Of a stretch of 64,000 nt of DNA, positions 3,956-59,743 are shown piece by piece. The stretch comes from Chryseobacterium gleum (lineage in GTDB: Bacteria; Bacteroidota; Bacteroidia; Flavobacteriales_D; Sanyastnellaceae): contig CAMCVP010000001.1 of NCBI GenBank assembly GCA_945881835.1, positions 434,001 to 498,000 of the forward strand, read 5' to 3'. Made by a program: the position numbers and the translations under genes. How positions within the stretch are numbered: the first letter of the stretch is position 1; each line of letters opens with the position of its first letter. The notes beneath the pieces are model-generated. The model ran no database searches, was not told the DNA's origin, and saw only the letters and a program-made list of their open reading frames with translations.

Positions 3956-5641
3956 TTAAATAAGTTTGCTCAGCACTTTCTCTCTTAACGTGGTGTCTTT
4001 CGCATCGGTTAATTGCTCCAACTCCGCGGCTTCGCTCATTAACTTTTCAGTGAACACTTTGTCTGAAATTCCTCCAGCATTAACGCGAACGTTGTAACAA
4101 GCTCCAAGCACAGCTGTGCGAATAGCCAATGCGCCAACACCAGCATCGGTAACAGAATTCGGATTTCCAATTTCAATCATGGCTTCACAAACATCAAATG
4201 CTTTGAATGCAACACGAGCGGTGCGCAATGGGATTTCCATTGCATATTTCGATGCGCTTTGAATAGCTTCGGTACGTGCTGCTTTTTCTTCTTCTGAATT
4301 TTTTGGTAATCCGAAGGCTTCCATAATTTTATTGAAAGACTGCGTGTCTTCATCGACCAACCAATTCAATTCATCTTGAATTTCTTTGGCTTTTATAGCC
4401 CAATTGGAAAACTCTTCCCAACGAGCATCCCATCCGCGTTTGTGTGCGCTAAGGTTTGCTACCATTCCCGCAAGCGCGGCACCCATGGCGCCACAGTATG
4501 CGCTTACAGATCCTCCGCCCGGTGCAGGAGATTCACTAAGTGTTTCGTTCGCGAAAGCAGTTAGACTCATGTCAACCAATTTCTTTCCGCCTCCTAAATT
4601 CTTTTCAATAATGAATTCAATAATTTTCTCTCCTGGATTGAAAGGAGCGAGATCGTCGAGTCCCAAAGACTTAACAGCGATCTTAATTTTTTCGTTGTCT
4701 GAAATGCCCAATGAACGCTCTTGCTTTTTCAAGAAATAATCAGCTGCATCCAATAAACTTTTCTTAGGGATTAATCCAACCAACTCGCTTCCTGTCACAC
4801 GAACGCCGCGCTCGGCTGCCTTGTTACACGATTCTTCAAAGGCAATATGAACTGGAGTGATATTGATGTTAGTGAGGTTCAATGACAATTGAGCCACACC
4901 ATATTCTTCAATGTACCACCCAATTCCTTTTACAGATTTCAATGTGCCTGGAATGCGCTTAGGTTCTCCGTTTTCATCTAAAACAGGCTTTCCACCTTCA
5001 TTCAAAACACGTCCAGCTTCGCGAATGTCGAAGGCAATAGCGTTTGCACGACGTGTGGAAGTAGTATTCAAATTCACGTTATATGCTACAAGAAAATCGC
5101 GAGCACCAATGGTTGTAATTCCAGACTTGCGAACGCTTTCTGTCACTTCATTCGGACCGAAATCGGGTGTCCAATCGGCAGTAGATATTTTCTCTATCGC
5201 TTCGTATTCTCCTTTTCTGCAATTCGCCAAATTCGCACGAACCTCTTGTTTCGCAGCGGCTTCGTAGAAATATCCTGGGATGCCTAATTCTCTTCCAACG
5301 CGCTCACCCAATTGATGGGCATACGCTGCGCATTCTTCAAGGGTAACTCCGGCAATCGGAACAAGAGGGCAAACGTCTGTTGCACCTTGACGCGGATGCT
5401 CGCCTTTATGCGAACGCATGTCAATGAGTTCTTGTGCTTTCTTCATCAATTGAAATGCACCTTCAAGGACAGCTTCGGGTTCACCTGCAATGGTAATCAC
5501 TGTTCTGTTTGTTGAAGCTCCTGGGTCAACATCGAGTAACATCACGCCCGGCACAGCAGCAGCGGCTTGTGCTATGGTGTTGATTTTCTCTTTGTCTCTT
5601 CCTTCCGAAATATTCGGCACGCACTCAATAATCTTTTTCAT
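3956..5641 (-). CDS. ftcD: Glutamate formimidoyltransferase / formimidoyltetrahydrofolate cyclodeaminase fusion
   Basis: This 561-residue fusion does the last steps of histidine degradation: it moves the formimino group from formiminoglutamate to tetrahydrofolate, then releases ammonia to give methenyl-THF. Residues 1 to about 330 are the transferase (ECVPNISEGRD at the start, GEHPRQGATDVCPLVPI near 80-100). The last ~200 residues are the cyclodeaminase (SPAPGGGSVSAYCGAMGAAL). The fused form is the one known from animals and many Bacteroidota. I place the start at the MKKIIE methionine because a longer start would overlap the TACCTTTG promoter box. No other hut gene is in the window. Confidence 0.93.
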   Translation of the reverse strand: MKKIIECVPNISEGRDKEKINTIAQAAAAVPGVMLLDVDPGASTNRTVITIAGEPEAVLEGAFQLMKKAQELIDMRSHKGEHPRQGATDVCPLVPIAGVTLEECAAYAHQLGERVGRELGIPGYFYEAAAKQEVRANLANCRKGEYEAIEKISTADWTPDFGPNEVTESVRKSGITTIGARDFLVAYNVNLNTTSTRRANAIAFDIREAGRVLNEGGKPVLDENGEPKRIPGTLKSVKGIGWYIEEYGVAQLSLNLTNINITPVHIAFEESCNKAAERGVRVTGSELVGLIPKKSLLDAADYFLKKQERSLGISDNEKIKIAVKSLGLDDLAPFNPGEKIIEFIIEKNLGGGKKLVDMSLTAFANETLSESPAPGGGSVSAYCGAMGAALAGMVANLSAHKRGWDARWEEFSNWAIKAKEIQDELNWLVDEDTQSFNKIMEAFGLPKNSEEEKAARTEAIQSASKYAMEIPLRTARVAFKAFDVCEAMIEIGNPNSVTDAGVGALAIRTAVLGACYNVRVNAGGISDKVFTEKLMSEAAELEQLTDAKDTTLREKVLSKLI

Positions 5642-14466: not shown

Positions 14467-14513
14467 TCCCCCACCTTCAGTGGGGGCATTACTCATGTCG
14501 CCCTAAGGGGCTC
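14467..14513 (-). repeat. REP-like element, inverted third copy over the tnpA stop
   Basis: Read on the minus strand this has the same two-hairpin plan: GCCC-ctta-GGGC, a linker with CATGAGTAATG, and CCCCCA-loop-TGGGGG. The stems differ from the flanking copies but still pair. It contains the TGA stop of the transposase gene, so the last codons of the protein are part of the repeat. Confidence 0.75.
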
Positions 14514-14936
14514 GCTGATGTGCGTCTCAATAAAGTTTCTGTTTCTTCCAGAGAATTCAAAACTGGAGTGATGCTCCTTTTGGTTCTGAATATACTTTTT
14601 CAATCGCGGTATTTCTGATTCACCGATACTGTATGCAGCATACCCCAATTGCCATTCAAAATCTTTGAGGAATTCCGCTTTAGTTTTCATCCAACGCGAT
14701 GAATTTGTCTTTAATTTTTCAGCAAGTTTCATCACTGCGATTTTTCTGGATAAGAAACAAAGGATATGAACGTGATCATAATATCCTCCAATTTCAATTC
14801 TAGGACACTCCATTTCAACACACAGACCTCCTAAATAGGTGTGCAAATCATTTTCAATTTGAGGGAGAATAAAAGGCTGTCTATACTTAGTTGAGAACAC
14901 CAGGTGAATAGCAATTTGTGAGATAGATTTTGCCAT
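14493..14936 (-). CDS. tnpA: Y1 (HUH) transposase, RAYT/IS200 type
   Basis: The 147-residue protein starts MAKSISQIAIHLVFSTKYRQPF, a Y1-transposase opening, and has the HUH metal site as DHVHIL and a candidate catalytic Tyr in KKYIQNQKEHH. These enzymes cut and rejoin single-stranded DNA at sites recognised through hairpins. The upstream ATG at 14972 is less likely because homologues start at MAK. The C-terminus ends ISEPLRAT, encoded within a REP-like palindrome. No frameshift is visible, so it may be active. Confidence 0.9.
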   Translation of the reverse strand: MAKSISQIAIHLVFSTKYRQPFILPQIENDLHTYLGGLCVEMECPRIEIGGYYDHVHILCFLSRKIAVMKLAEKLKTNSSRWMKTKAEFLKDFEWQLGYAAYSIGESEIPRLKKYIQNQKEHHSSFEFSGRNRNFIETHISEPLRAT

Positions 14937-29711: not shown

Positions 29712-30862
29712 TTCTGAATTTTTTTAAGGGCTTCTTCGTTGCTAATTCGGATGCCATTTTCGAAGGCGACAACAAACGCTCCGCTGAATCCAGCATCGCG
29801 AAGAATTTTTTGATTCTTCTTGGCGTCGTCTAAACTTCGAGTGCTTCCCACTAGGTACTTGTGTGCGCCGTTGCTAAGGTATTCCTCAATTCTGACTAAA
29901 CCTTTAAATTGATTTGATTTTTTTTGAATAGGGGTGGCGGAACTGAGTATTTGAACTTTAAACGCCACTTGTTCCGCAGGAATCTCTTCCCAAATAAGTC
30001 CTTCAAAGGCATTGTGCTGGATTGGTTGCTCAACAACAGCGGTCGGTGTGGGAAGATTCGTAGGTTGAATGTTGAAAAGTTTGCTCTGATAATCAACGAA
30101 GGCGCGGTACACCGCAGAACTTAATTCTTCTTTGGCAGCTTTGCTTTGCAAGTAGTCTTCTTCTTTGTTGTTGGAAAGGAATCCCAATTCAATTAGAATA
30201 CTTGGCATGTTGGTGAAGGTGATCACATAGTACGGTGCTTGCTTCACCCCGCGGTCTTTTCTTCCCAACTTCACGAATTCATCTTGAACGTTTTTCGCAA
30301 GGAGAATACTCTTGTCTTGGTAAATGTTTTCGCGAAGGCTCATGGCAATGTAGGTGTCTGGATTATTCGGGTCGAAGCCGTCGTAATCCTTACCACCGTT
30401 GCTTTCCAAATAGATGGAAGCGTTTTCACGCATGGCATTGCGCAAACTCTCTTCCGATTTATGCAATCCCATAACAAATGACTCGGAGCCAGAAGCTTCG
30501 GTGTTCGGATTGGCGTTGCAGTGAATACTTATAAAAAGGTCGGCGTTGTTCGAATTGGCAATCTCTACGCGACGCTTCAGCGTAGGGAAGGTGTCGCCTG
30601 TTCTTGTATAAACAACTTTAACATTGGGGTAGTTCTGCTCAATGAGTTTTCCCACTTTAAGGGTTACGTCTAATGCAATGTCTTTTTCCGAAGTCTTGTA
30701 TCGCCCAGTTCCCAAGGTTCCAGGATCGGTGCCGCCATGTCCCGCGTCGAGTACAACAATAAACTTTTTATCTATCGTTACTACTTTCTTCGAAATGCGA
30801 TACGCCGAACCTAAAGTGAAAACCAGTGCCACTAAAAAAATGTACAGTATTTTTTTGTGCAT
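29708..30862 (-). CDS. N-acetylmuramoyl-L-alanine amidase (AmiC type)
   Basis: The protein is 384 residues from MHKKILYIF, which starts a signal-type helix; an in-frame ATG at 30898 is the alternative. The amidase_3 domain shows VVLDAGHGGTDPG with zinc His, SEKDIALDVTLKV with the Glu, SIHCNANPN with the second His, and ILIELGFLSN. It cuts peptides from glycan strands of peptidoglycan in the periplasm. A C-terminal SPOR-like segment follows (FKVQILSS, then RDAGFSGAFVVAF). It is divergent from lptD, with 88 bases between the two starts. Confidence 0.92.
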   Translation of the reverse strand: MHKKILYIFLVALVFTLGSAYRISKKVVTIDKKFIVVLDAGHGGTDPGTLGTGRYKTSEKDIALDVTLKVGKLIEQNYPNVKVVYTRTGDTFPTLKRRVEIANSNNADLFISIHCNANPNTEASGSESFVMGLHKSEESLRNAMRENASIYLESNGGKDYDGFDPNNPDTYIAMSLRENIYQDKSILLAKNVQDEFVKLGRKDRGVKQAPYYVITFTNMPSILIELGFLSNNKEEDYLQSKAAKEELSSAVYRAFVDYQSKLFNIQPTNLPTPTAVVEQPIQHNAFEGLIWEEIPAEQVAFKVQILSSATPIQKKSNQFKGLVRIEEYLSNGAHKYLVGSTRSLDDAKKNQKILRDAGFSGAFVVAFENGIRISNEEALKKIQK

Positions 30863-30950
30863 CTGCTGTAAGGGTTTATTTTCTCGAATGTTTAGCATAG
30901 CTTTGACACGTGAACGCAATTTAAACAAAACTATTTTTCTTTGTGAAGGC

Positions 30951-33470
30951 ATGAACTTCCGACGCGCTCTAATTTTCACGTGTGTGGTGTTGATAAGCTC
31001 CTTATTGAACCCGTTGTCTGCGCAGTCTGATACCTTGTCGCCAATGCCTGTTGACACCCTTTATTTTTCTTCGGAAGAGCAAGCCATGGAAGAGGTTCAT
31101 TATTTCGGGAAGGACAGCACGGTGATGGATTTGATTAATGATCGCGTGTATTTATATGGATTGGGTTCCTATGTTACGTACGGAGATTTAGAGTTGAAAG
31201 CGGGATACATAGCTTTTTCCTTGACCGACAACATTGCTTTCGCGAAGGGATTCAAAGATTCGTTGGGGGTTTATACGGGAAGGCCAGTATTCACGCAAGG
31301 AGAGACATCGTTCGAAGAAGATTCCTTGGGATATAATTTCAAATCGAAAAGAGGAATTAGTTATGGTGTTCGCACGGAAGAGTCCGACGCGTATTTGCAC
31401 ACTGCCATTTCGAAGATGCAGGTAGACAAGACCATTCACATTCGAAAAGGTAAATTCACCACGTGTTCGAATCCGAATCCGCATTTCCATTTTCAATTGT
31501 CGAAGGCCATTATTATTCCGAATGAAAAGATTGTCAGCGGTCCGCTATACTTGCAATTCAGGAAAGTGCCGGTACCGTTGGGATTGCCGTTTGGATTCTT
31601 TCCGAATAAAAAAGAAAGCACTTACGGAATATTAATCCCAGGATATGGAAATGGAAGGGCGAAGGGATTCTTCGTTCAGAACTTGGGATACTATTTCCCC
31701 ATTAACGATCACATAGACACGAAGCTTTTGTTCGACGTCTACACCGGAGGATCTTGGAGTGTGAAGAACATTACGAACTATAAGACTCGATATAAGTATC
31801 AAGGTTCATTCAATATTTCAAGAACCGTTAACAAAACGGGCTTCCGCGAGTTATCGAATTATTTACAGCAGTCGACTTTCAACATTCGTTGGAATCATTC
31901 GCAAGATCCGAAGGCACGTCCGAACGAATCGTTCAACGCGAATGTGAATTTGGGAAGTTCTCAGAATTTCAGAAATAACTTGAACGCTACGCAACAAGAT
32001 TTCTTAACGAGCACCTTCAACTCTGCGGTGCAATGGTCGAAGTCTTTTCCTGGAAAGCCTTTCTCGTTGGCGCTTTCAGCGAATCACACGCAGAACACAC
32101 AATCGCGATTGGTTCAGATTACGCTTCCATCTGCGGCGTTCAACGTTTCGCGTATTAATTTGTTGAAGAAGGTCTTTCCGAAATCTCCAATTGGAATTAA
32201 CGCCTCGGTGAATACCGAGCAGCAGCTTTCGGCTTATGAGCAACAGTTCGGACAGTTGACCATGAGTGAATTGTTGAACAAGGCAACCAGCGGGGTTCGT
32301 ATGAATACTACCGCAAGTACTTCTTGGAAGTTGGGACAGTTTTTAACCTTGAATCCGAGTGCAACCTTCACGGGTTACGGGACTTGGAAAGTGGTTTCTC
32401 CGATTGGCGATGCGCAGTTGGATACGGTTGCTGGGTTCAAAGCAGCGGGGAATTGGTCTACTCAGATTTCAGCCAACACGCGTATTTACGGAACATTTGT
32501 AAGGAAGGGCGCGAAGAAGTTGAAAGCGGTTCGACACATGATTCAGCCTAACGTTGGGTTCTCCTACACGCCTTATCAGAATTTCCAGCAGTTCGGCTAT
32601 TACGGCGTGAACGGCGAGTTCTTGGGGTATTCGGCGTTTGATGCGGCAAGGTTTGCGCCAACGAGTTCATCGCAAACTGCGAACATGAATTTTTCTATTA
32701 ATCAGAATATTGAAGCGAAGGTTCGCGACGAGTCTTCTGCGAAGGTGTCGTATAAGAAGGTGAAGATTATTGACAGTTTTAGAACCAGTACATCGCGCAA
32801 CTTCATGGCCGATTCTATACAGTGGAGCAACGTGAATTTCTCGGCCTTTACATCGGTTGGAAAATTCTTAACAATGAACTATTCGTCTTCTTACAGCATG
32901 TACGATCGCGATTCGTTGGGTCGGAAGATTGATACGTTTTTGAATGAATCGCGAAAAGGAATTGCGCGCATGGAAGGCACTAATTTAGCATTGGGAATTG
33001 TTGTGCGCAGCAAGCAGGCGAAGCCAAGTTCTAATCAGACAGCGGCTAATCCGGCGGTTACTCCTCAGCAGCAAGAGATTCTTTCTACTAACCAAGCGAC
33101 GTTGATCGACTTCAATGTGCCTTGGAATTTGAGTGTGAATTACAATTTACGCATGAGTAAGAAGTGGTTGGTTGATCAACAGCGCGACAGTTCTATCTAT
33201 ACGCAAGCGGTGACGTTCATGGGCGATGTTGCCTTCGCGAAACGCTTGGCGTTGAGCTTCAACGGCGGATACGATTTCAACGCGAAGGAAATGACTACGA
33301 CGACCATTGGCCTTCACATAGATCTTCACTGTTGGGAGTTAAGTGCGAACGTGGTACCGTTCGGACTTCGTCAGAGTTATTACATTCAGCTGAATATTAA
33401 ATCGCCTTTGCTGCAAGATCTGAAATTGCAGAAGCGAGGTAATTTGGGAGAGGATTATTTGCTCTATTAG
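30951..33470 (+). CDS. lptD: LPS assembly outer-membrane protein LptD
   Basis: The protein is 839 residues from MNFRRAL, chosen because it begins a clear signal peptide ending LSAQS; the frame is open further upstream over the amidase start. An OstA/LptA-like periplasmic domain (NDRVYLYGLGSYVTYGDLELKAGYI) is followed by a large beta-barrel with GIPGYG-like and alternating aromatic strands. LptD inserts LPS into the outer leaflet with LptE. The TAG stop lies within the first hairpin of the array at 33461. Confidence 0.9.
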   Translation: MNFRRALIFTCVVLISSLLNPLSAQSDTLSPMPVDTLYFSSEEQAMEEVHYFGKDSTVMDLINDRVYLYGLGSYVTYGDLELKAGYIAFSLTDNIAFAKGFKDSLGVYTGRPVFTQGETSFEEDSLGYNFKSKRGISYGVRTEESDAYLHTAISKMQVDKTIHIRKGKFTTCSNPNPHFHFQLSKAIIIPNEKIVSGPLYLQFRKVPVPLGLPFGFFPNKKESTYGILIPGYGNGRAKGFFVQNLGYYFPINDHIDTKLLFDVYTGGSWSVKNITNYKTRYKYQGSFNISRTVNKTGFRELSNYLQQSTFNIRWNHSQDPKARPNESFNANVNLGSSQNFRNNLNATQQDFLTSTFNSAVQWSKSFPGKPFSLALSANHTQNTQSRLVQITLPSAAFNVSRINLLKKVFPKSPIGINASVNTEQQLSAYEQQFGQLTMSELLNKATSGVRMNTTASTSWKLGQFLTLNPSATFTGYGTWKVVSPIGDAQLDTVAGFKAAGNWSTQISANTRIYGTFVRKGAKKLKAVRHMIQPNVGFSYTPYQNFQQFGYYGVNGEFLGYSAFDAARFAPTSSSQTANMNFSINQNIEAKVRDESSAKVSYKKVKIIDSFRTSTSRNFMADSIQWSNVNFSAFTSVGKFLTMNYSSSYSMYDRDSLGRKIDTFLNESRKGIARMEGTNLALGIVVRSKQAKPSSNQTAANPAVTPQQQEILSTNQATLIDFNVPWNLSVNYNLRMSKKWLVDQQRDSSIYTQAVTFMGDVAFAKRLALSFNGGYDFNAKEMTTTTIGLHIDLHCWELSANVVPFGLRQSYYIQLNIKSPLLQDLKLQKRGNLGEDYLLY

Positions 33471-33599
33471 AGCAAGAATGTGCGAAGCACGAATGCCCGA
33501 AGGGCGAGGGTCTTTGACGAGGGCAACTGGCGTTGCGAGGGCAATTAGCATTGCGAGGGTCCTATGGACGAGGGTTGCGGAGCAACGAGGGTCTTCGAC
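33461..33599 (+). repeat. Mini-hairpin array with gagg linkers, copy 1
   Basis: Nine hairpins follow one another. Stems in order: GCTC/GAGC, GTGC/GCAC, GCCC/GGGC, GTC/GAC, GCAAC/GTTGC, GCAAT/ATTGC, GTCC/GGAC, GTTGC/GCAAC, GTC/GAC. Loops are 3-5 bases (gaa, ttt, tggc, tagc, tat, gga, ttc among them). The first linkers end in gaat; from the third stem on every linker is exactly gagg. The lptD stop codon is inside the first hairpin and the array ends eight bases before the dinB stop. Confidence 0.85.
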
Positions 33600-33606
33600 G
33601 ATTCAA

Positions 33607-34125
33607 TCAATTCCCTAAATAGCTGTGGGTTACAAAATTGCAATGATGAATGCAATGTCCAACAATCATGAAGCCGATGGCGCGAGTGGAGTAGGTGGTG
33701 TTGTTCGCGGGGGCTTGGAACTGAAGCATTTCAGGCGACATGTATTTGAATAAGGCAATGGTGGACTTGCGGACGAGCTCGAATTCAGCAATTAATTCAG
33801 CAAGGCTTTGATTCATTTGTTTCGAGTTTTCGATAAAATCATTTTCATCGAATCCAGGAAGAGGCGTGCTGTCGAATCGTGAAAAACGCAAGGCGCGATA
33901 AGCGAAGATTCGCTCACATTCTATGATGTGCTTGAACACTTCTTTGGTTGTCCATTTATTTGGAGCGTAGGCAAAATTTTCTTTTTCGGAAGGGATGGAT
34001 TTGAGTATGTCGAGTGTTGCATTTAAATCTTCTTCCAACGCCACTAACAAGTCATTCGACGGAATAAGCCCGTAGTAATAGTGGAAGTAGGTTGGCGCTT
34101 CGGAGTAGATTTCTTGGTTAGTCAT
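33607..34125 (-). CDS. DinB family protein
   Basis: The 172-residue four-helix protein has DinB/YfiT-type marks: WTTKEVFKHIIECERIFAYRALRF with one metal-binding His and a C-terminal GHCIHHCNF with the others. Members are metal-dependent thiol transferases or uncharacterised. It is flanked on both sides by copies of the gagg hairpin array, which suggests the gene and arrays may have moved together or that the array was duplicated around it. Confidence 0.88.
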   Translation of the reverse strand: MTNQEIYSEAPTYFHYYYGLIPSNDLLVALEEDLNATLDILKSIPSEKENFAYAPNKWTTKEVFKHIIECERIFAYRALRFSRFDSTPLPGFDENDFIENSKQMNQSLAELIAEFELVRKSTIALFKYMSPEMLQFQAPANNTTYSTRAIGFMIVGHCIHHCNFVTHSYLGN

Positions 34126-34151
34126 GATGTGATGATTAGTATAATGTCAAC

Positions 34152-34242
34152 GAGGGTCTTCGACGAGGGCAACTGTGTTGCGAGGGCAATTTGCGTTGCG
34201 AGGGTCCGGTGGACGAGGGTTGCGGAGCAACGAGGGTCTTGG
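34152..34242 (+). repeat. Mini-hairpin array with gagg linkers, copy 2
   Basis: The stems GTC, GCAAC, GCAA, GTCC, GTTGC and GTC come in the same order as in copy 1 and again with gagg linkers. The loops differ (ttc for ttt, tgt for tggc, ggt for tat). The last unit is decayed. It lies between the dinB start and the parE stop. Confidence 0.85.
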
Positions 34243-34256
34243 ATTATTTCCAATTG

Positions 34257-34550
34257 CTATAAGCGATTTTCGATATCCATCATTTCATGCAAAATCCTTA
34301 TTACCTCTAATTTGTCTTTCTTGATGTTCAGTTTGTAAAAGATTAAGTGGGATTTCACTTTCGATCTGCGGTATCCTTTTTTGATTTCATCATAGTCGAG
34401 GCCAGATTCAGGATGTTCGCTTAAGTATTCAATTTCATTAAAAATTAAATTGAGATATCGGTCAGCCTGTTCTTCGGACCAGTTTTCTTGAGTGTACAGC
34501 CAGATTTTTTCTAAGTCTCTTTCGGCTTCCTTACTTATCTGCGGAATCAT
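34257..34550 (-). CDS. parE: Type II toxin, RelE/ParE family
   Basis: The 97-residue protein has the ParE/RelE fold signature: ISKEAERDLEKIWLYTQENWSEEQADRYLNLI at the start and YRRSKVKSHLIFYKL in the core strands, ending VIRILHEMMDIENRL. ParE toxins poison DNA gyrase; RelE toxins cut mRNA. The context and the LHEMMD ending favour ParE. It overlaps its antitoxin gene by four bases, the normal arrangement. Confidence 0.93.
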   Translation of the reverse strand: MIPQISKEAERDLEKIWLYTQENWSEEQADRYLNLIFNEIEYLSEHPESGLDYDEIKKGYRRSKVKSHLIFYKLNIKKDKLEVIRILHEMMDIENRL

Positions 34551-34795
34551 TTTTTCAAATGTGTTGCTTTAAGTTTTTTCAAAAAAGAGTCTCTATTGAA
34601 GTCTTTTGCTATCCCGGATTTTTCACCTTTTTCAAGTTCTCTGATGAGCTCAAGTTTTTTAGCTTCTTCCTGTTCGAACATTCTTAATGCTGTTCGTACA
34701 ACTTCGCTGGCAGAAGAGAACTTTCCAGTTTGTACCATTCCATTTATGAAATTCTCGAAATAATCTCCTAGGAGTATTGAAGTGTTTTTAGCCAT
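34547..34795 (-). CDS. parD: Type II antitoxin, ParD family
   Basis: The 82-residue protein has a ribbon-helix-helix start (NTSILLGDYFENFINGMVQTGKFSSASEVVRTALRMFE) and a charged C-terminal tail that would wrap the toxin. It comes first in the operon. A perfect palindrome overlapping its promoter suggests it represses its own transcription. Confidence 0.93.
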   Translation of the reverse strand: MAKNTSILLGDYFENFINGMVQTGKFSSASEVVRTALRMFEQEEAKKLELIRELEKGEKSGIAKDFNRDSFLKKLKATHLKK

Positions 34796-34814
34796 GACTT
34801 TTTATATTGCATCA

Positions 34815-34846
34815 CAAATATACCAATTCATGGTATGTTTTGCAAA
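34815..34846 (-). promoter_or_regulatory. parDE promoter and operator
   Basis: On the minus strand TTTG, then 20 bases, then TATATTTG gives the full Bacteroidota -33/-7 promoter, the clearest in the window. A palindrome (ATACCA-5-TGGTAT, 34820-34836) overlaps the -7 box. ParD binding there would block RNA polymerase. Confidence 0.8.
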
Positions 34847-34874
34847 GTCGTGAAAAAAAATTTGAGTTTAGAAT

Positions 34875-34910
34875 AGAATGAGAAACAGAAACAGAATGAG
34901 AAACAGATTC
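34875..34910. repeat. Two tandem copies of an 18-bp unit
   Basis: The unit AGAATGAGAAACAG plus four bases occurs twice in a row with three differences near the end. It lies between the parD promoter and nuoN. No function is evident. Confidence 0.5.
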
Positions 34911-34930
34911 TTTTCTTCCCCTCTCTTAAC

Positions 34931-36283
34931 TTAAAGATTGTGCATGTACCCTGCTGCTACAGTAAGCAAAACCAACAAAGCCGTTAGCAAAATGTACGTC
35001 CATTTAACAAGTGGAGTTAGGACAATGCGGCCGGCGTTTTCGATGTGCTGATAAACATTCAACGATGCGCGCAAGTAGTAAAAGGCTCCGATAGCAGAGG
35101 TGATGATCATGACAACAACCAATGCGAAATACTTCGCTTCGATCAATTGCGCAATGACGAAATACTTCGCTATGAAACCGCTAAACGGAGGAATACCTGC
35201 CATTGATAGTAATGCAGCGGTGAAAGCAAATGCCAATACACCGTTTCTTCTGTACAAGCCTTTCAACGGATTTCCTTCCAAGGTTTGTGTTTCTTTGATT
35301 ACACCGAAGGCAATGATTCCTGCAATGCTGTACGTGAGCAAATAGAACAACAAACTCAACAACGATGCATTTCCAATAATGGTTGAAAGAAGGAAACCAG
35401 CGTGAGAGATACTCGAGTAAGCCAACATGCGCTTCACGTCGGTTTGCCACAATGCTACCGTGTTTGAAGCAATAAGCGTTACCGCAGCGATAACTCCAAT
35501 GGTGTAACCATTGGCTTCAACATAAAATTGAAATGGACCTGTGAAGAGTTTGAACAACGCTACCATAGCAGCTGCTTTCACAATCGTTGACATGAATGCG
35601 GTGATCCATGTTGGAGCACCTTGATAAACGTCTGGAGTCCAGATGTGGAAAGGTGCTGCAGAAATTTTGAAAAGGAATCCAACCAAAATCATGGTAATTC
35701 CAACATTCATAATGATCGATGCGTCTTTTCCTTCTTGAATGAAATTCGAGATAACCGCTAAGTCGAAACTTCCAGTTGCGCCGTAAACCAAGGTGATTCC
35801 GAACAACAAAATAGCAGAAGCCACAGAACCAAGTATGAAGTACTTGAATCCACTTTCGTTTGAAGCCAAATCGTGTTTCTTACTCGCTGCCAAAACATAA
35901 ACAGGAATACTTAAGATTTCAACCCCTAAGAATAACATAGCCATGTTTCCGAAAGAAGCCAAGAGTCCAGCACCGCAAAAGCTGAATACAACTAAGGCGT
36001 ACAAATCTGTTTTTCCTTCGTGTTGTTTGAAGTAAGACGAAGAAAGAATAAACCAGAAGAACAAGACTACAGCGAACACGCCTAAAGCCAAGTTCGCTCC
36101 GTTTTCATACACCAACATGGTGTGATTGAAGGGCGTCTCAACGGTGTTCCAATCGGCAGCAATAAAGCCAACCAACGTAGCCAAGGCAAGAAGTATAAAT
36201 GGGAGAACGTATTTCTTCAGGTTTAGAATGTCTAAAACCAAAACTCCAATTCCCAATAATGCGGTTAGTAATAACTCTTTCAT
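34931..36283 (-). CDS. nuoN: NADH-quinone oxidoreductase subunit N
   Basis: The protein is 450 residues from MKELLLTALL; a longer start would overlap nuoM. It is one of three antiporter-like proton-pumping subunits of Complex I, with about 14 membrane helices and the family stretch KMLAYSSISHAGFLL. It is the last gene of the nuo operon. Confidence 0.95.
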   Translation of the reverse strand: MKELLLTALLGIGVLVLDILNLKKYVLPFILLALATLVGFIAADWNTVETPFNHTMLVYENGANLALGVFAVVLFFWFILSSSYFKQHEGKTDLYALVVFSFCGAGLLASFGNMAMLFLGVEILSIPVYVLAASKKHDLASNESGFKYFILGSVASAILLFGITLVYGATGSFDLAVISNFIQEGKDASIIMNVGITMILVGFLFKISAAPFHIWTPDVYQGAPTWITAFMSTIVKAAAMVALFKLFTGPFQFYVEANGYTIGVIAAVTLIASNTVALWQTDVKRMLAYSSISHAGFLLSTIIGNASLLSLLFYLLTYSIAGIIAFGVIKETQTLEGNPLKGLYRRNGVLAFAFTAALLSMAGIPPFSGFIAKYFVIAQLIEAKYFALVVVMIITSAIGAFYYLRASLNVYQHIENAGRIVLTPLVKWTYILLTALLVLLTVAAGYMHNL

Positions 36284-55335: not shown

Positions 55336-55389
55336 GTCGCAGACATTCGCCACAGGCATTCGTTCGAAGAACATTCGTCACAGACTTTC
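55336..55389 (+). repeat. Mini-hairpin array with attc linkers
   Basis: Four hairpins in a row: GTC/GAC (loop gca), GCC/GGC (aca), GTTC/GAAC (gaa), GTC/GAC (aca). The linkers are attc, attc, attc, and after the last unit tttc. All four stems pair perfectly. The array fills the gap between two convergent genes and starts 10 bases after the stop at 55326. Confidence 0.85.
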
Positions 55390-58205: not shown

Positions 58206-58682
58206 ATGGAAAACTTATCACACGTGAATGAAAAGGGAAACGCGGCTATGGTCGATGTTTCCGAAAAGGCCGATACACTGCGTGCCGCGAAGGCACAAGC
58301 TGAAATTATTTTTCCGGAAAATTTAAATTCGTTGTTTCAAAACAACGAATATCAATCTCCCAAAGGCCCTGTTTTTCAAACCGCCCGTATCGCAGGAATT
58401 CAAGGTGCTAAGCATACATCGAATTTAATTCCGCTGTGCCATCCACTTCCAATTACAAATATTGATGTTCAAATTGAAAAAACGGAAAATGGCGCGTGCA
58501 TTCATTGCACAGTGAAAACGTTCGGTAAAACAGGTGTTGAAATGGAAGCGCTAACTGGCGCGTCTGTTGCGGCACTTACGATATACGACATGTGCAAGGC
58601 CATGAGCTTCGATATGGAAATTGGAGCGGTGAAGTTGTTGGAAAAGTCGGGAGGTAAATCGACATACATCGCAGTGAAATGA
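58206..58682 (+). CDS. moaC: Cyclic pyranopterin monophosphate synthase MoaC
   Basis: The 158-residue enzyme does the second step of molybdenum cofactor synthesis. Marks: MVDVSEKADTLRAA, KGPVFQTARIAGIQGAKHTSNLIPLCHPLPI, and ALTGASVAALTIYDMCKAM. It overlaps the next gene by four bases. Confidence 0.97.
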   Translation: MENLSHVNEKGNAAMVDVSEKADTLRAAKAQAEIIFPENLNSLFQNNEYQSPKGPVFQTARIAGIQGAKHTSNLIPLCHPLPITNIDVQIEKTENGACIHCTVKTFGKTGVEMEALTGASVAALTIYDMCKAMSFDMEIGAVKLLEKSGGKSTYIAVK

Positions 58683-59743
58683 ACCTTCAATCCAAATCGA
58701 ATTGGCACTCGCGCGAGTTGGCGCTTTACGGCACCACTTGCGAAGAAATTAAAAAGTGGGTGAGTTATTTTCAGTTGGAAGTGAATCAGCGTTTGGCTTA
58801 TGTCGATGCTTCTCACGCGGAAGAAAATTCAGATTCTTCATTTGGAATAACCACTCACGAAAATCATTTTGTTCTTCAGGAAGAAACAGGACTCGATCAA
58901 ACTGTCCTTCATGAATTCGATGGGGCGTTAGTCAACGGCAATCACCATGCGGCTTCCAGCCAAATCATTTTTGTTAATCTTGAAAAAGAAAACAGTTTAG
59001 TCAAGCGAAGCGCAGAACTAACCAACGTGTTAGCCGTCGTCCTTCCGGAAGGAATGACAGAAGTTCCCGCGTATGTTCAACCCTTCCTTCAACCCGAAAC
59101 TAAAATTTTTATGTTGAAGGAAGATGTGCTTGTATTCGTTTCAACCTTCTTTGAAGTGGCGTCTCTGAAAGCATTGGTATTGTTGGGAGGAAAGAGCAGT
59201 CGTATGGGTGAAGAAAAAGGACTCATTCAATACCATGAAAGAACACAAGCGGAACATTTGGTTTCCCTGTTGGAAGAAATAGGATTGGAAGTTTTTCTTT
59301 CCGTTCGGGAAGAACAGAAAGAGAATTATGCGTTCTTGAACAGCCCGTTTATTGCGGATCAACTTCAAGGTGCAGGTCCACTTGGAGGAATCGCTTCCGC
59401 CATGCGAACATTTCCACAAACGGCATTTTTAGTCGTGGCATGTGACCTTCCGAATTTGCAAAAAGAACAACTCGAATTTTTGTTGAAGAATAGAAAAACA
59501 AAAGCGTTTGCTACGTGTTATGAATCCCCATTAGACGGAGGTCCAGAGCCGTTGTGTTCCATATACGAACCGAAATCTTTTTCGGCATTGATGAAAGTTT
59601 GGGTAAGCGGAAAGAGTTGTCCGAGAAAAATGCTTTTCAATCGAACCGTTGAAGTTCTTCCAATTAAAGATTCGAAATTTTTAGTCAATGCGAATACGCC
59701 AGAGGAGCGCATTCAACTTCAAGAAAAAAGTAAAAGACCGTGA
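58679..59743 (+). CDS. mobA: Molybdenum cofactor guanylyltransferase MobA with N-terminal MobB-like domain
   Basis: The 354-residue protein has a C-terminal MobA domain from about residue 160: VLLGGKSSRMGEEKG, VACDLPNL, and CSIYEP. It adds GMP to molybdopterin. Residues 1-150 align in style with a MobB-type P-loop domain in which the Walker A Gly-Lys-Thr is replaced (ALYGTTCEEIKKW) and VDASHAEEN may be the following strand. Bacteroidota relatives share this layout as I recall, so it is a conserved fusion with a degenerate nucleotide site. Its TGA stop overlaps the 3' end of rnpB by about 12 bases. Confidence 0.85.
   Translation: MNLQSKSNWHSRELALYGTTCEEIKKWVSYFQLEVNQRLAYVDASHAEENSDSSFGITTHENHFVLQEETGLDQTVLHEFDGALVNGNHHAASSQIIFVNLEKENSLVKRSAELTNVLAVVLPEGMTEVPAYVQPFLQPETKIFMLKEDVLVFVSTFFEVASLKALVLLGGKSSRMGEEKGLIQYHERTQAEHLVSLLEEIGLEVFLSVREEQKENYAFLNSPFIADQLQGAGPLGGIASAMRTFPQTAFLVVACDLPNLQKEQLEFLLKNRKTKAFATCYESPLDGGPEPLCSIYEPKSFSALMKVWVSGKSCPRKMLFNRTVEVLPIKDSKFLVNANTPEERIQLQEKSKRP

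Follow-up and report, generated by a model that had tools for sequence, protein, structure and literature searches.

The nine mini-hairpins that follow the outer-membrane gene lptD in this lake bacterium probably occupy a site that has long had an array, and the interior has since been reshuffled. We interpret it, by a judgment that only just tips in favor, as a copy of a genus-restricted, dispersed, modular DNA repeat, whose units would be mixed by recombination and whose pairing is perhaps kept by hairpin-primed template switching. Mini-hairpin arrays tagged by their linkers (gaat, gagg, tcat, ggaat, and others) are dispersed through the source genome and its close relatives. Sister species have arrays at the same sites. 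Inner units have been gained or lost there or have given way to others, in some cases from a different linker class. Across orthologous arrays, the stems remain paired while the loops drift.

Structure of the lptD array

In the window (the whole stretch of DNA analyzed, 64,000 nt), nine mismatch-free hairpins lie in a row at positions 33459-33599, spaced by 4-nt linkers. In arrays of this repeat generally, the units have stems of 2-7 bp and mostly 3-nt loops, run head to tail, and are assigned to a class by the 4-nt linker. The longest chain in 20 single-base shuffles of the window has three hairpins, compared with the nine observed, which bears out the nine-unit array of the preliminary description. 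The end of the span given there (33461-33599) is correct, and hairpin 1 begins 2 nt earlier than its start. Likewise, the label "gagg array" fits the last six linkers, but the first two are gaat. The array is, as claimed, the longest of its type in the window, and the lptD stop codon (TAG, 33468-33470) does lie inside the first hairpin, within its loop and 3' arm. The features are listed below, where G000 is the source genome, G001-G008 are relatives of the same genus, and G025 belongs to another genus.

30642-33470, + strand: lptD (Pfam LptD_2)
33459-33475, + strand: hairpin 1, TTGCTCTattAGAGCAA, then gaat; contains the lptD stop; same place in G001, G003, G004, G006, and G007
33480-33490, + strand: hairpin 2, GTGCgaaGCAC; gaat on both sides (33476-33479 and 33491-33494); common to G001 and G003
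33495-33505, + strand: hairpin 3, GCCCgaaGGGC, then gagg; common to G001 and G003
33510-33518, + strand: hairpin 4, GTCtttGAC; gagg-flanked; common to G003
33523-33536, + strand: hairpin 5, GCAACtggcGTTGC; gagg-flanked; common to G003
33541-33554, + strand: hairpin 6, GCAATtagcATTGC, then gagg; paired variant GCAACtagcGTTGC in G003
33559-33569, + strand: hairpin 7, GTCCtatGGAC; gagg-flanked
33574-33586, + strand: hairpin 8, GTTGCggaGCAAC; gagg-flanked
33591-33599, + strand: hairpin 9, GTCttcGAC, then gatt; the unit that usually ends such arrays on the 3' side
33607-34125, - strand: gene of a DinB_2-superfamily protein, between the two GAGG arrays
34156-34231, + strand: second GAGG array, five hairpins in the order of units 4-8 of the lptD array
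55336-55385, - strand: GAAT array of four hairpins; an unrelated hairpin at this site in G001

The second GAGG array is 91% identical to the lptD array over ~94 nt, and a decayed sixth hairpin follows it at ~34236-34244. The window also carries an IS200-like Y1 transposase gene (14492-14936, - strand) flanked by CCCCCAGcttcaCTGGGGG-type hairpins.

The lptD site across relatives

Five relatives (G001, G003, G004, G006, and G007) carry an array at the lptD site; G005 and G008 do not. In these five and in the source genome, TTGCTCTATTAG is followed by AGCAAG and then by the array. Among the genus members with a readable lptD end, the LptD C-terminus (..RGNLGE..LLY) does not depend on whether the array is present (with one or two changed residues in G007) or absent (G005 and G008), and G025, which has no array, has the same kind of end. 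The DNA of the last lptD codons differs (cttctttattaa versus ttgctctattag) and leaves the protein end unchanged, the codons of G005 and G008 being synonymous. In G008, whose contig continues past lptD, a purine-rich tract takes the place of the array. The preliminary description had supposed that the array may have replaced the original gene end and had proposed looking in relatives for an empty site with a different end. Array-less sites do occur (G005, G008, and G025), but none has a different protein end. Because the C-terminus is nearly identical in all compared genomes, replacement of the lptD end by the array is rejected.

G007 is the outgroup, with ~66% lptD DNA identity, and its array is decayed. 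The comparison therefore favors an array position that is old in the genus, with later loss in G005 and G008. The inner stems are not fixed, which is at odds with an old fixed RNA element.

The interior of the array is mosaic. Hairpins 1-3 are common to G000, G001, and G003. Hairpin 3 is the last unit before the gagg class begins (33506-33509); from there G000 and G003 continue with GAGG and G001 with GAAT, in agreement with the earlier suggestion that two arrays were joined or the linker converted. The array of G006 at lptD is also GAAT-type. In the lptD tree, G000 pairs with G001 (support 1.000) and G003 with G006 (0.999), so the two genomes with GAGG-type lptD arrays each have a nearest sister with a GAAT-type array. 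This arrangement supports at least one exchange of linker class at the lptD site. Two losses of GAGG or a transfer between lineages would each produce this pattern, and both would mean that array segments were exchanged. Segment exchange between arrays is thus well supported by the mosaics.

The gene content downstream of lptD (window 33600-34931) differs among G001, G003, G004, G006, and G007; here it consists of DinB_2 and parDE. Since the species have different genes there, the gap may be an insertion hot spot.

Copy number, classes, and range

The pattern CGAGGG..CGAGGG has 29 matches in the source genome and one in the reversed control, and CGAATG..CGAATG has 117 and three, respectively. 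A stricter three-unit GAAT pattern has 33 matches in G000, 28 in G001, 32 in G003, 46 in G004, 50 in G006, two in G002, and eight in G005, and none in G007, G008, or four genomes from three other genera of the family. Among 394 other genomes of the class, 18 have GAAT-pattern matches; nearly all of those listed are tandem repeats that do not form hairpins. As far as sampled, the range of the repeat appears to be the genus. For the TCAT class, the three-unit pattern matches G000 140 times; G007 and seven other genomes of the family have no match. A search for phages and plasmids with the array returned no match, and a partial literature search turned up no account of similar arrays in Bacteroidota.

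A linker-blind scan of 0.97 Mb finds 217 chains of at least four hairpins, compared with 99 in one block shuffle, counts that are not an unbiased genome sample because part of the ~0.97 Mb taken from the 2.53-Mb genome was chosen around known arrays. In the same comparison, the linkers ATTC, ATGA, ATTCC, and CCTC occur 83, 67, 35, and 30 times, versus 0, 0, 1, and 0 in the shuffle. This suggests that several linker classes share one common process. A bolder and tentative extension, to which we give a small chance, is that the linker classes (GAAT, GAGG, TCAT, GGAAT, and others) belong as families to a single replicating DNA system, in which a putative trans-acting factor copies or repairs tagged mini-hairpins. 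If G007 lacked the factor, this would explain why a decayed lptD array is all that it has, with no match for any of the three searched classes.

TCAT arrays are often paired in opposite orientations around a center of ~14 bp, as though they had extended outward from a core (G000:C2, ~58470-58700; G001:C16, 7488-7762; G004:C64, 19262-19657). Units of a third class (AACgcaGTT, TACgaaGTA, and AAAACCgaaGGTTTT) with ccaat or ggaat linkers often lie 10-20 nt after a terminal GTCttcGAC, for example after 6173 in L105 and after the array at 5494-5547 (- strand) in L117.

Unit evolution

We made 77 array-by-relative comparisons, anchored on the flanks. Alignable units are present in 47, an array without an alignable unit in 14, and no array in 16. 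Among the aligned hairpin units, 62 are identical and 46 different, under a threshold (60% identity and the same length) that favors similar units. Loops are changed at 45 of 346 sites (13%). The 408 stem pairs contain ten one-sided changes (1.2% of 816 sites) and nine double changes that keep the pairing, some of which may be whole-unit swaps.

In most length classes, the pairing of distinct words taken with no pairing filter exceeds that in all or nearly all of 2000 shuffles; the pairing of GAAT words of length 14 is not above 2000 shuffles. Units with one mismatch have ten G.T and eight A.C mismatches, a small sample with no wobble preference. Loop pairs that are reverse complements, a possible trace of inversion, number 12 versus 8.5 expected from shuffles (160 of 2000 shuffles), so loop inversion as a signature of template switching is weakly enriched.

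Genomic placement and orientation

Of 41 classifiable arrays, 38 are intergenic by gene prediction. Thirteen of the 38 are in convergent gaps, an enrichment over the ~6 that gap counts predict, and eight are in divergent gaps. In tandem gene gaps, eight arrays have the orientation of the genes and nine the opposite one. In several cases, the distance from a stop codon to the start of the array is 1-13 nt. Orientation relative to replication, judged by local GC skew, is concordant for 30 arrays and discordant for 14, a result that we set aside because contigs disagree and arrays cluster. On contig G000:C11, all ten arrays of at least three units have the same orientation; on C14 the ratio is 3:3. 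Arrays can also lie within coding sequence. A Glyco_transf_22-like gene (L107, 4440-6050; G000:C3, ~72440-74050) has GAAT and GAGG arrays at two in-frame sites, and the same two sites in G003 have a different repeat type with the reading frame open.

Rival readings: RNA element, transposase substrate, or slippage product

The arrays could be 3' UTR RNA elements, terminators or exonuclease blocks, whose pairing is kept by selection on the transcript. The excess of convergent gaps and the arrays close to stop codons leave room for an RNA role, and both the much stronger conservation of stems than of loops and the RNA fold z-score of the lptD array (-2.7) point the same way. However, the even orientation in tandem gaps, the eight arrays between divergent genes, the arrays inside a coding sequence, and the lack of wobble preference all argue against selection on a transcript. 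Folding does so as well. With DNA parameters, the minimum-energy structure of the lptD array consists of exactly the nine hairpins, whereas RNA parameters do not recover them. Over 42 arrays, the mean probability of the designed pairs is 0.40 as DNA and 0.29 as RNA of the array strand, and neither fold is therefore strongly designed. We find no intrinsic terminator (a G+C-rich stem with a T run) in 33300-34900 and no Rfam match to the array at the gathering score, the RNase P match lying elsewhere in the window. Weakened by orientation, folding, and wobble counts, the RNA reading is unlikely. The units could instead be non-autonomous and REP-like. A single-strand Y1 (HUH) transposase would then copy them, guided by the linker tetranucleotide in the manner of TnpA-REP and IS200/IS605 enzymes. 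The known substrate has this form, a hairpin with an adjacent tetranucleotide; some enzymes tolerate partial exchange of the stem sequence (PMC8266576); and the source genome has two Y1_Tnp genes, one of them ~190 bp from a GAAT array. That array, however, also lies simply beside a stop codon, as arrays do elsewhere, and the hairpins around the examined Y1 genes are of other kinds and longer. Moreover, no Y1_Tnp is detected in G003 (96% complete), which has many arrays, or in the array-bearing drafts G002, G005, and G008 (71-85% complete), and the stems of 2-5 bp are short of the 6-13 bp usual in REPs. A Y1 transposase is consequently a doubtful candidate, weakened as the obvious mobilizer by the drafts with no detected Y1_Tnp and the other hairpins at Y1 genes.

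Alternatively, the arrays could be inert slippage products, short tandem repeats that seem maintained since their copies are young. Units do recur as identical words, and where one stem has different loops, these tend to be a single substitution apart. But the loops of orthologous arrays have had time to diverge by 13% while one-sided stem changes stay at 1.2%, and G007 shows what a decayed array looks like. The unequal change of loops and stems makes slippage without maintenance very improbable.

Proposed maintenance of the hairpins

In the modular DNA repeat that we prefer, recombination or slippage between arrays would disperse and mix the units. Pairing is proposed to be kept because one arm of a hairpin can template its partner during replication, that is, by quasipalindrome template switching, a mutation process by which paired stems arise or are restored with no need for selection (PMC8794818, PMC7202029). 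Arrays would persist where insertion is tolerated, mainly between genes, and the array probably brings the cell little gain. That template switching keeps the stems paired is a hypothesis; it agrees with the change rates and has a precedent (PMC8794818). The signature of arm-to-arm copying is mixed, with nine double against ten one-sided stem changes, possible unit swaps among the former, and weak loop inversion.

Paired stem changes usually count as proof that an RNA structure is under selection. Many stems of these arrays keep their pairing as DNA, with an even orientation to genes and weak predicted RNA folding. If the maintenance is mutational, the genus offers a natural test of whether replication itself keeps hairpins perfect, and a warning for covariation-based RNA discovery.

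Comparison with known systems

REP elements and BIMEs are palindromes tagged with GTAG or CGTC, with stems of 6-13 bp (PMC3733652). The array is REP/BIME-like in distribution, yet its tag and stems are not those of REPs. The likeness lies in dispersed short palindromes with a tetranucleotide beside the hairpin, placed mostly between genes and near 3' ends (38 of 41 arrays intergenic, convergent gaps enriched) and sometimes giving the stop codon. In contrast to REPs, no GTAG-like or CGTC tag is found at the hairpin foot, the linkers being GAAT and GAGG; the stems are shorter (most 2-5 bp) and sequence-free; the units form head-to-tail chains without the alternating orientation of BIMEs; and there is no clear partner transposase. 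Template switching resembles the proposed process as a mutation process that pairs stems without selection, but its known cases are single events (PMC8794818, PMC7202029), and we found no report in the literature of its maintaining genome-wide chains of mini-hairpins. Spreading palindromes have a precedent in Volvox organelle DNA, where, in the part of that account drawn on here, small proliferating hairpins with 3-5 nt loops fill non-coding DNA and are read as selfish; they differ in having mostly longer stems, nested insertions, and an organellar setting, and a constant-linker chain is not described in that part (PMC2670323). Rickettsia palindromic elements, according to the passages on them in PMC3733652, are likewise palindromic inserts within protein-coding genes, but they are longer, and here in-frame arrays are seen in one gene only, the lptD array being of another kind.
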